A stretch of 64,000 nt of DNA. Origin: an uncultured Spartobacteria bacterium. GTDB lineage: Bacteria > Verrucomicrobiota > Verrucomicrobiia > Chthoniobacterales > Chthoniobacteraceae. Numbering within the stretch: position 1 is the stretch's first letter; each line of letters opens with the position of its first letter. The notes below the pieces were generated by a model that worked only from the letters and a program-made list of their open reading frames with translations, searched no databases and had not been told where the DNA came from. The stretch covers positions 62,001 through 126,000 of the forward strand of contig CAIURC010000214.1 in NCBI GenBank assembly GCA_903901425.1, written 5' to 3'. This document shows positions 12,545 to 17,354 of this stretch, one piece after another. A program made the translations under genes and the position numbers.

Positions 12545-12892
12545 ATGTCCTTGAATGTCTGGTACACCTGCCAACGCTGCACCCAGTGCTGCCGCTGGCC
12601 GGATTTCGTCAAAGTCACCGAACAGGAGATCGCCGCCATCGCGCGTCACCTCCAAATCCCGGAACTCGAGTTCATCCAGAATCACACACGGCTCCGCCCC
12701 CAGCGCGACGGCCTTGCGCTCCTCGACAAACCCAATGGCAAGTGCGCCTTCCTCGACGGACGCGAATGCCTCCTTCAAGCCGTCAAACCCGCCCAGTGCA
12801 AGGGGTTTCCCAACACCTGGAATTTCCCCGGATGGCCCGAGATCTGCCAAGCGGTTCCGTCGCTGAAGCCGGGTACTGCTGAACCCCGCTGA
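12545..12892 (+). CDS. YkgJ-family cysteine cluster protein
   Basis: This small 115-residue protein carries the CxxCxxCC cluster (TCQRCTQCC) near the N-terminus and further Cys residues in KCAFLDGRECLL and AQCKGFPNTW. This pattern is the YkgJ/UPF0153 family, thought to bind zinc or an iron-sulfur cluster. Molecular function is unknown. No signal peptide is seen. The ATG at 12545 immediately follows the terminator, so its promoter may lie inside the upstream terminator region. Confidence 0.8.
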   Translation: MSLNVWYTCQRCTQCCRWPDFVKVTEQEIAAIARHLQIPELEFIQNHTRLRPQRDGLALLDKPNGKCAFLDGRECLLQAVKPAQCKGFPNTWNFPGWPEICQAVPSLKPGTAEPR

Positions 12893-12947
12893 GCACACGG
12901 CTCGGCGCGATCCATTTCATCGGAATCGGGACGTGCCGCCAAATCCC

Positions 12948-12961
12948 ACTACATTTGTAGT
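12948..12961. promoter_or_regulatory. BlaI/MecI-type operator 1
   Basis: The palindrome ACTACA-TT-TGTAGT matches the TACA/TGTA operator type known for BlaI and MecI repressors. It lies about 41 bases before the repressor ATG. Its centre is 25 bases from that of operator 2. Confidence 0.8.
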
Positions 12962-12971
12962 TGCCTCAATT

Positions 12972-12987
12972 CACTACACATGTAGTG
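12972..12987. promoter_or_regulatory. BlaI/MecI-type operator 2
   Basis: The 16-base dyad CACTACA-CA-TGTAGTG carries the same TACA/TGTA core as operator 1. It ends 8 bases before the repressor ATG. A possible promoter, TTGCCT (12961-12966) with TAGTGT (12983-12988), places the -35 just after operator 1 and the -10 across operator 2. Repressor binding would then block RNA polymerase. Confidence 0.85.
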
Positions 12988-12995
12988 TTCTGCTC

Positions 12996-13373
12996 ATGCC
13001 CGCTCCTGACATCTCCGAATCCGAGTGGATCCTCATGGAAGCTCTCTGGGATTCCGCTCCAAAAACCGCCTCCGAACTCACCCGCCAACTTGCCCCGTCC
13101 ACCCACTGGGCAGAAAACACGGTGCGCACCCTGCTTGGACGCCTCGTCGAAAAGGGCGCCCTCGCGGTGGGTGAAAACCAATCCGGCACCCGCACCTACC
13201 AACCCGCGGTCTCCAGGGAGACTTGCGTCAAATCGGAGGGCGATTCCTTTCTCCAACGGGTGTTCCGCGGAGCAGCCAAGCCGCTTCTGATGCACTTTGC
13301 CCAAGGCACCAAGCTCAGCCCGGAAGACGTCCGGGAACTCAAAAAGCTGCTGGATCAATCCCTCAAGTCCTAA
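12996..13373 (+). CDS. BlaI/MecI/CopY-family transcriptional repressor
   Basis: This 125-residue winged-helix repressor starts ISESEWILMEALW and carries the recognition region ENTVRTLLGRLVEKGAL, typical of BlaI/MecI. A C-terminal dimerisation helix follows. BlaI proteins are cleaved after signalling by a membrane M56 peptidase, and the next gene encodes such a protein 6 bases downstream. I chose the ATG at 12996 rather than the frame opening at 12933 because the longer version would place both operators inside the coding sequence. The operators imply autoregulation of the pair. The inducing signal is unknown and need not be a beta-lactam, since no beta-lactamase gene is near. Confidence 0.9.
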   Translation: MPAPDISESEWILMEALWDSAPKTASELTRQLAPSTHWAENTVRTLLGRLVEKGALAVGENQSGTRTYQPAVSRETCVKSEGDSFLQRVFRGAAKPLLMHFAQGTKLSPEDVRELKKLLDQSLKS

Positions 13374-15759: not shown

Positions 15760-17202
15760 TCAGGCAATCAGGTCTTTGACCACGTTGCCGAAGTTGTCCG
15801 TGAACCGGAAATCCCGTCCGTTGTAGCGGTAGGTGAACTTCGTGTGATCAAATCCGAGCAACGCCATCAGCGTCGCATGCAGGTCATGGATGTGCACCTT
15901 GTTTTCCACCGCACGCGCCCCAAACTCGTCCGTGCTCCCGTAGGCCTGACCGCCCTTCACTCCGCCCCCGGCCATCCACGCCACCATCGCGCGCCCGTTA
16001 TGGTCGCGCCCAGGCGACGCGCTTCCGTTCCGGTCCCGCGTCACGGTCCGACCGAACTCGCCGCCCCAGACAATCAGAGTGCTGTCCAGCATCCCGCGCT
16101 GGCGCAGATCCTTGATCAGTGCCGCCGCGGGCCCATCAATCTCGCCAGCCTTGCCGCGCAACGCTGTCTCCAGATTGCCGTGGTGATCCCAACCGCCCAC
16201 CTCCACCTGCACAAAACGCACCCCCCGTTCCACCAACCGCCTTGCCACCAGCAGCTTGGCCGCCACCTCCGTCGTCCCGTACATATCCCGCACCTCCTGT
16301 GGCTCCTTGGTGATATCAAAAGCGTCGGTGGCTTCCGTCTGCATCTTGAACGCCATCTCAAACGACTGGACCCGTGCCTCAAACTGCGCGTCTTTCTGCA
16401 ACTGGGCCGAGTGCATCTGGTTGAGTTTCTTGACGTAATCCAGCTCCCGGCGCTGCCGTTCCATCGGCGTGAACTGGTTGCGGATGTTCATGATCACGTT
16501 GTCCAGATCCATCTTGCTGGAATAGTTCACGTTGCAGCCCTGATACATCCCAGGCAGGAACGCCGACTGCCGCCACTCTGGAGCACCCCCGATCGTGATG
16601 AACCCAGGCATGTTCTGGTTCTCCGTCCCCAGCCCGTACACCACCCACGACCCCATCGACGGCTTCGGCAACTGCAACGATCCGGTGTGCATCATTCGCG
16701 CCGCCACTTCGTGCGCCGGAATGTCCGTCCACAGCGAACGGACCACCGCAATGTCGTCGATCAGTTCGCCCAGCTTCGGAAACACCTCGCTGGTTTCAAC
16801 CCCGGACTTGCCGGACTGCTGGAACTTGAACGGCGACCCGAACGCCAGCCCCTCAAGCCCGGGAAGCGCGCTATTGTCGTACTTGTTCAACGCCGGCTTC
16901 GGATCCCAAGTGTCCACATGCGAGGGCGCGCCACTGGCGAAAAGATGGATCACCGCCTTGGCCTTCGCCTTAAAATGCGGCGCCTTCGGAGCCAGAGGCG
17001 TTGCCAACCCTGCCGCGGTGGCCGCAGAGGCCTCGTATGGGTTCAGCCCGAACAACGGCCCGAGGCTGAGAGCACCAAACCCCATCCCGGTCTTGAGCAG
17101 GAAATCGCGCCGCGTGGCTGGCATCATGTCCGGCGTGAAGGAATGCTCCAAAATGTACTTTTCGCGAGAGAACTCGGGCAGGTTTGAGGAATCGTGTTTC
17201 AT
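15760..17202 (-). CDS. DUF1501 Tat-exported protein (sulfatase-like fold)
   Basis: This 480-residue protein has a twin-arginine export signal (TRRDFLLKTGMGFGALSLG) about 30 residues from the chosen start. The body is DUF1501, with GAPSHVDTWDPKP, VRSLWTDIPAHE and WGGEFGRT segments. DUF1501 proteins are abundant in Planctomycetes and Verrucomicrobia. They usually sit next to a PSD1/DUF1549-DUF1553 cytochrome, which is missing here. The fold is related to alkaline phosphatase/sulfatase, but the activity is unproven. The frame is open back to a GTG at 17256; the ATG at 17202 is preferred. It converges with the M56 gene. Confidence 0.85.
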   Translation of the reverse strand: MKHDSSNLPEFSREKYILEHSFTPDMMPATRRDFLLKTGMGFGALSLGPLFGLNPYEASAATAAGLATPLAPKAPHFKAKAKAVIHLFASGAPSHVDTWDPKPALNKYDNSALPGLEGLAFGSPFKFQQSGKSGVETSEVFPKLGELIDDIAVVRSLWTDIPAHEVAARMMHTGSLQLPKPSMGSWVVYGLGTENQNMPGFITIGGAPEWRQSAFLPGMYQGCNVNYSSKMDLDNVIMNIRNQFTPMERQRRELDYVKKLNQMHSAQLQKDAQFEARVQSFEMAFKMQTEATDAFDITKEPQEVRDMYGTTEVAAKLLVARRLVERGVRFVQVEVGGWDHHGNLETALRGKAGEIDGPAAALIKDLRQRGMLDSTLIVWGGEFGRTVTRDRNGSASPGRDHNGRAMVAWMAGGGVKGGQAYGSTDEFGARAVENKVHIHDLHATLMALLGFDHTKFTYRYNGRDFRFTDNFGNVVKDLIA

Positions 17203-17354
17203 AAGAGTGCTGCGCGCCGGCCTCTTTCTTTGAAGGAGGATATTGTCCGACTGCACCTTTGAATCGCATCGCCCCTGGGGAACTTAGCACGCCACCCCTC
17301 ATTTTTCTGCCCCCCCTGAACATGCGATCTCGTTTCGACCGCCCCGACCGGCGG

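Follow-up and report, generated by a model that had tools for sequence, protein, structure and literature searches.

Two TACA/TGTA dyads lie directly upstream of a blaI-like gene and its M56 metallopeptidase partner in the window, the 64,000-nt stretch of DNA from an uncultured Spartobacteria bacterium that was analyzed here. In all probability, they are paired BlaI/MecI-type operators of the adjacent BlaI, and the operon would be autoregulated and form a closed loop in this genome. The first-pass annotation had assigned the dyads to the TACA/TGTA class of BlaI/MecI sites and had them overlap the promoter proposed for the repressor and its receptor; both points stand, and most relatives with a closely related BlaI share the layout. 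A guess from bare sequence has become a promoter design that can be tested and that is widely conserved across Verrucomicrobiota and some members of the Planctomycetota.

Paired dyads upstream of blaI-M56

The first dyad, ACTACA-TT-TGTAGT (ACTACATTTGTAGT), has perfect 6-base arms and a C/T mismatch at the next outward pair. The second (CACTACACATGTAGTG), perfect in its 7+2+7 bases, ends 8 nt (12988-12995) before the ATG of blaI (12996-12998), and the centers of the two are 25 bp apart. Their exact CTACANNTGTAG cores occupy positions 12949-12960 and 12974-12985. Direct reading and a mechanical search both returned the sequences, the center spacing and the distance to the ATG as first annotated. 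Both dyads fall within the 103-base gap between a CxxCxxCC-domain gene (12545-12892; E 2.6e-08) and the blaI-like gene (Table 1).

Table 1. Features of the blaI-M56 operon and its upstream region
Feature	Coordinates	Strand	Basis
Operator 1, CACTACATTTGTAGTT	12947..12962	.	Core dyad 12948-12961; same place and sequence class in relatives; one of two exact CTACANNTGTAG genome-wide
-35-like hexamer TTGCCT	12961..12966	+	Sequence; first two bases shared with end of operator 1
Operator 2, CACTACA-CA-TGTAGTG, perfect dyad	12972..12987	.	Conserved in relatives
Possible -10-like TAGTGT (3 of 6)	12983..12988	+	Inside operator 2, 16 nt after the -35; suggested by likeness across 45 sequences
blaI-like repressor, 125 aa	12996..13373	+	PF03965 E 8.6e-30; MecI E 5e-12; alignment of starts
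BlaR1-like M56 metallopeptidase, 783 aa	13380..15731	+	PF05569 E 3e-54; HELLH residues 204-208; secretin-like C-terminal region and STN-like repeats

The Penicillinase_R domain (PF03965) spans residues 6-121, nearly the whole repressor. Among solved structures, the repressor matched by sequence not only MecI (Table 1) but also the Staphylococcus aureus penicillinase repressor, BlaI (E 5.9e-11). The domain, together with TACA/TGTA dyads at the gene's own promoter, places the protein in the BlaI/MecI family on grounds of sequence and conservation. The presumed reader helix residues W38, T42, T45, and R49 are invariant in 53 relatives. A longer frame (12933-13373) that opens at the in-frame GTG at 12933 and encloses the dyads was rejected, because the relatives start at the ATG, with their dyads lying at varying distances ahead of it. 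The next long frame behind the M56 gene (15760-17256) is on the opposite strand, and the operon therefore appears to have two genes. Promoter and terminator scans returned nothing at either end of the operon; behind the M56 gene, the terminator scan found no terminator-like site.

At no more than one mismatch, the window held 2 matches to the dyad, both exact, as opposed to a mean of 0.14 in shuffled sequences, 3 of 100 of which reached 2. The genome (5,102,136 bases in 224 contigs, 96% complete, so that a target could fall in a gap) contained exact CTACANNTGTAG in 2 places, both at blaI, plus 6 one-mismatch places. Had the dyad been common at random positions, this would have spoken against the first-pass annotation; the genome-wide check shows that it is not. 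The bare dyad count did not rise above the control, since the reversed pattern occurred in 4 exact places and in 128 at no more than one mismatch. The tandem pattern, TACNNNNGTA-(11-18)-TACNNNNGTA, was found in 1 place versus 2 for its reverse, and at up to three mismatches 222 places versus 954 for the reversed control left no usable signal. PF03965 and PF05569 each had a single match in the genome, and both exact dyads lie directly before that gene pair. The nonrandom part is that both exact sites stand 25 bp apart at the sole detected BlaI gene, and that this arrangement is repeated in relatives.

Conservation in relatives

We compared 80 loci from named genomes, the best 80 of 380 candidates; some are the same records as genomes of the family sample (L092 = G003, for example), and the two sets are not independent. 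A dyad was counted if it had 7 or 8 of the 8 core bases and lay within 200 bp upstream of blaI. At least two dyads preceded blaI in 46 of the 50 relatives with at least 52% identity and upstream DNA. At 62% identity or more (40 loci), 35 loci had two dyads, 1 had one, 1 had none, and 3 were without upstream DNA; exactly two dyads were thus present in 35 of the 37 loci with at least 60 bp upstream. The 13 loci of 52-61% identity were divided into 10 with two dyads and 1 each with three, one, and none, and the 27 loci below 52% into 11 with two, 1 with three, 4 with one, and 11 with none. Elsewhere in these loci, dyads numbered 99 in 703,505 positions, a background of 0.03 per 210 bp. Spacing was measured in the 45 of 53 loci (L090-L142) retained for having two dyads 20-28 bp apart; it ranged from 22 to 26 bp and was 23 bp in 24 of the 45.

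Two dyads were found, among others, in Verrucomicrobium, Prosthecobacter, and Brevifollis and, within the Planctomycetota, in Stieleria and in a Pirellulaceae MAG. The exceptions were L124, the start of which was not placed, and L137 (= G011), both without a dyad, and the Haloferula loci L127 and L135, with one dyad each. Three loci (L095, L096, and L143) come from MAGs with titles unlike their neighbors, Akkermansia muciniphila and Klebsiella pneumoniae for the near-identical verrucomicrobial L095 and L096, and are probably misnamed bins.

Of the 40 genomes sampled from the family, 23 encoded a PF03965 protein, with 32 matches in all, 30 of which were inspected (two had no locus). By eye, 11 genomes carry a BlaI of the same type as in the window, with SEW..MEALW or similar and the reader helix W....TVRTL..RL. 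Immediately upstream of blaI, nine of these carry a pair of dyads that keep at least 7 of the 8 core letters; in G038 only one dyad passes this cutoff, a second appearing when the pattern is relaxed, and in G011 none passes. A second type, SRRERQIMD, is two residues shorter before the reader helix in three aligned examples, and its promoters carry other words, such as TGCTAAAAATTTAGCA, which reaches into the ATG; a few further types were also seen. Within the same family, L044, L046, L049, L050, L051, and L053 have another BlaI type with GCTAA...TTAGC or GTTAA...TTAAC dyads, one of which overlaps the ATG. Exact dyads occurred in 13 of the 40 family genomes, 10 of them among the 11 with the window's BlaI type, and the other 29 genomes held only 3 exact dyad places in all.

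Search for further targets

For a sequence-only search, we built a 39-position profile, R1, from 40 relatives with the window left out; these were 40 of the 45 retained loci, L091, L109, L111, L113, and L115 having been omitted as close copies. In its own genome, the window site scored 42.5 bits (E 2.8e-10; 5.5e-5 for the reverse strand of the same place), and no other place was found at E≤10 among the 150 of 236 first-look candidates scored, a search that would miss single or weak sites. Across 60 genomes, R1 detected 27 distinct places at E≤0.1, 24 of which lay no more than 300 bp ahead of a BlaI gene. The 40 family genomes contributed 10 places (8 before BlaI and 2 in G011). Another 20 genomes of the class, selected by hand from the stronger part of the 90 genomes (of 384) that had a match, contributed 17 places. 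These fell in 15 of the 20, with 16 places at most 300 bp before BlaI and 1 in G407; the remaining 5 genomes had nothing at this threshold. The profile missed the blaI promoters of G011, G017, and G038 at E≤0.1. Some of the genomes with hits supplied profile rows and match by construction; the site of the window's own genome (G000), the two G011 sites, and that on contig C5 of G407 are not among the rows.

The tandem pattern occurred in 10 places in the 40 family genomes (7 upstream of a BlaI match, 1 at a barrel gene of G011, and 2 elsewhere), and its reversed control was as common or commoner in many of them. A looser version gave 36 places in the 20 class genomes, 20 of which preceded a BlaI match by 400 bp or less, along with far more places for the reversed control. 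Because reversed-control places were so abundant, the counts rest on the profile instead.

The same dyad in front of other genes had been expected to reveal the regulon. In the window's own genome it did not: the scan returned no other exact dyad, tandem place, or R1 match (E≤10). The idea fared better in one relative, G011, where paired sites precede an OMP_b-brl barrel gene (L068/L076; E 6.7e-11) directly behind the M56 gene, with 19 nt from site to ATG, and a gene with an FGE-sulfatase domain (L059; E 1.7e-37), with 5 nt to the start. One of these pairs is degenerate (CTACATGTGTAG with CAACATTCGTAG), and the blaI of G011 itself has at most a degenerate dyad. In G407, paired operators (C5:77404-77442, L214; E 6.1e-11) precede an M56-secretin gene (M56 E 1.6e-59, Secretin 2.7e-05) that runs off the locus, with no BlaI frame listed beside it. 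Where other putative targets are seen, then, they appear to encode either another M56 receptor or a protein that by eye looks outer-membrane-type or secreted, again behind paired sites.

These relatives bear on a wider-regulon reading, in which BlaI would repress its own operon plus other genes through single or degenerate sites, the paired site being merely the strongest target. This reading shares autoregulation with the one we prefer and disputes the closed loop only. It could draw on the six one-mismatch single sites in the genome and on the two additional G011 genes with paired sites, one pair being degenerate. However, none of the six sites is tandem, and five (L003-L007) lie inside long open frames; the sixth, L008, is between the two longest frames, where a 156-aa frame also covers it. 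No second profile match at E≤10 and no second tandem-pattern place were found, and for the Clostridium thermocellum proteins, paired sites are described by the authors as seemingly a strict requirement (PMC8457756). We consider a wider regulon unlikely. As regulon members, the six one-mismatch places were rejected on inspection, none resembling a paired site; the single site G000:C214:135507 may still be a weak target.

Single exact dyads in G015, G016, and G039 were set aside as unconnected with BlaI, and so were those that G034 and G036 carry beside a LacI-type gene. The latter two genomes are among the ten that combine the window's BlaI type with an exact dyad, but their blaI pairs themselves have 7 of 8 core letters. 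Their look-alike, CCCTACACGTGTAGGG (L064 and L065), is flanked by the LacI-type gene and by a Gfo/Idh-like oxidoreductase gene, both identified by eye, and is probably a LacI-type operator. Such look-alikes demonstrate that the core occurs in other settings, and they could hint that the dyads of the window bind another regulator, for example of the LacI type, rather than the adjacent BlaI. That is very improbable, given that nearly all profile places (24 of 27) are upstream of BlaI genes, that the 29 family genomes without this BlaI type have so few exact dyads (3), and that the other BlaI types of the family carry other dyads.

Position of the dyads in the putative promoter

The trinucleotide TTG directly follows dyad 1 in 41 of the 45 retained loci, and the bases at the -35 place in the 45 relatives are TTGA in 20, TTGC in 14, TTGT in 6, and others in 5. 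Likeness to TATAAT, averaged over 45 distinct sequences (window included), peaked at a spacer of 17 with a mean of 3.11 of 6; the next-best value, 2.67, was at a spacer of 12, within dyad 2 itself. The hexamers of the window are weak (TTGCCT, and TAGTGT at 16, the best -10 matching 3 of 6), and a strict sigma-70 scan of 12850-13100 returned 0 promoter-like sites. From these placements, dyad 1 would abut or overlap a TTG-type -35, and dyad 2 would cover the spacer and reach the -10; both being occupied should therefore exclude RNA polymerase.

Given the same -35/-10 placement, transcription plausibly starts at about the ATG, which would make the message leaderless. The ATG is 33-40 nt from the start of the -35 in 28 of 45 distinct sequences (window included) and further away in the other 17; the relatives therefore do not all share a leaderless start. 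The near-leaderless promoter of the first-pass annotation remains a plausible reading of the hexamer spacing, but the strict scan was empty. An RNA hairpin or attenuator in place of a DNA-level operator, which the 8 nt between dyad 2 and the ATG and the mutual complementarity of the dyads (93% over 15 nt) might suggest, is scarcely credible, as neither dyad would be in the RNA with the start where the -35/-10 spacing puts it, the 2 nt between the arms of each dyad are too tight for an RNA loop, and the TACA/TGTA letters themselves, not just their pairing, are conserved.

Proposed mechanism

Autoregulation of blaI-M56, proposed in the first-pass annotation, is very likely, judging from the conserved paired dyads over the putative promoter and the match of the repressor to MecI and BlaI. 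Two dimers of the adjacent BlaI-like repressor would bind the two dyads, masking the promoter's -35 and spacer/-10, and the two-gene operon would be held at low expression by negative autoregulation. The membrane M56 protein would sense a presumptive signal, upon which BlaI is expected to be cut or released, and repressor and receptor would be made together until the signal ends. We infer BlaI repression and M56 signaling from the bla and mec systems. Because the paired site was found only here in this genome, the operon would be a closed loop, with the M56 protein itself, including its secretin-like and STN-like C-terminal region, as the induced product.

More tentatively, the operon may be a closed sensor-effector loop in which BlaI has no other target and the output is the C-terminal module of the M56 protein, the operator promoter serving as a fixed chassis and the module being swapped between lineages. 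A clear share of the swapped modules is of envelope type (secretin-like, STN, LptD_N, SurA/PPIase, amidase, and M23); ankyrin, TPR, and beta-propeller also occur. What makes the system interesting is this proposed combination of a closed loop with a module that changes while the promoter and protease ahead of it stay the same. If the loop is indeed closed, such BlaI/M56 pairs would be inducible membrane proteases with exchangeable outer modules and not primarily antibiotic-resistance switches. The results also suggest that regulon hunting is the wrong route to the function of the receptor, which is itself the sole visible target in this genome.

Comparison with known systems

The bla and mec systems of S. 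aureus and Bacillus licheniformis resemble the window in repressor family, in having several operators, and in the autoregulation of blaI-blaR1. Three operators are present in B. licheniformis, where the OP1 oligonucleotide contains TTACATATGTAA (PMC3305447). Unlike bla and mec, the genome studied here has no divergent beta-lactamase or PBP gene with a dyad (no other exact site was found), and unlike BlaR1 and MecR1, the receptor in the window is without a recognized penicillin-binding sensor. BlaI is inactivated by a cut between N101 and F102 according to the introduction of one paper, whose own proposal is a different one, displacement of BlaI from its DNA by a peptidoglycan dipeptide (PMC3305447). 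The window repressor has His100-Phe101 aligned with this Asn101-Phe102 site. HF occupies the position in all 53 relatives with at least 52% identity and in 14 of the 27 below, a count that is partly circular because one search pattern held HF.

The closest precedent for the layout is in C. thermocellum, and self-contained paired-site BlaI regulons are thus already known. As mapped by DAP-seq, BlaI_1845 and BlaI_0696 share with the window paired inverted-repeat sites for four protomers and self-regulation, and their regulons comprise one operon (its own) and three operons, respectively. They differ in their words, GACTAT and GTCTAT rather than CTACA, and in the two further genes of the BlaI_1845 operon (PMC8457756).

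The copper repressors CopR and CopY of Gram-positive bacteria are homologous and recognize TACANNTGTA cores, two such sites lying upstream of the cop operon of Enterococcus hirae; the same source urges caution in calling operators from a 10-base core (PMC7253601). Unlike these proteins, the window repressor (translation of 12996-13370) has a single cysteine and none of the C-terminal CXC motifs that mark CopY, and no copper gene was recognized in the two-gene operon. Among the papers listed in literature searches of journals outside subscription, no earlier description of this promoter was seen.

The M56 receptor and its C-terminal module

The receptor carries the HExxH motif of M56 peptidases as HELLH, with H204, E205, and H208 invariant in 45 aligned proteins. 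Its C-terminal region matched Secretin at E 6.5e-05, below the gathering score of that family, and STN once and weakly (E 0.026; 0.0026 when searched alone); a second STN-like repeat was seen by eye and in the structure model. Up to E 0.1, Secretin and STN were the only matches beyond M56, and no transpeptidase or beta-lactamase family appeared among them. No solved structure matched the receptor by sequence at E≤0.01.

The AlphaFold model of the receptor was of moderate confidence (pLDDT 78.5, pTM 0.48). Type II secretins and S. aureus BlaR1 took the top Foldseek ranks with low TM-scores over the whole chain, and the likeness to secretins and BlaR1 is therefore fold-class evidence only. The M56 part of the model aligned with S. 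aureus BlaR1 (8exr_A) at a TM-score, normalized by target, of 0.73.

The M56 proteins beside the BlaI of relatives were compared in a set of 45, made up of the window and 44 of the 80 loci. This set excludes cut or short M56 frames, loci without an M56 frame behind blaI, close copies (such as L091, L096, and L104), and most Firmicutes loci. M56 matched all 45 proteins, Secretin 20, and STN 10. Among the 25 of 33 families listed, ankyrin, Amidase_3, M23, PPIase/SurA, TPR, and LptD_N were each found in single members and beta-propeller in two. The one Amidase_3 match belongs to L134, where the M56 protein beside blaI appears to have an N-acetylmuramoyl-L-alanine amidase domain. LptD_N matched 1 of the 45 proteins. 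In the window receptor, residues ~648-685, between the STN-like repeats, form a stretch that by eye resembles the LptA/OstA type, with low pLDDT and no family match.
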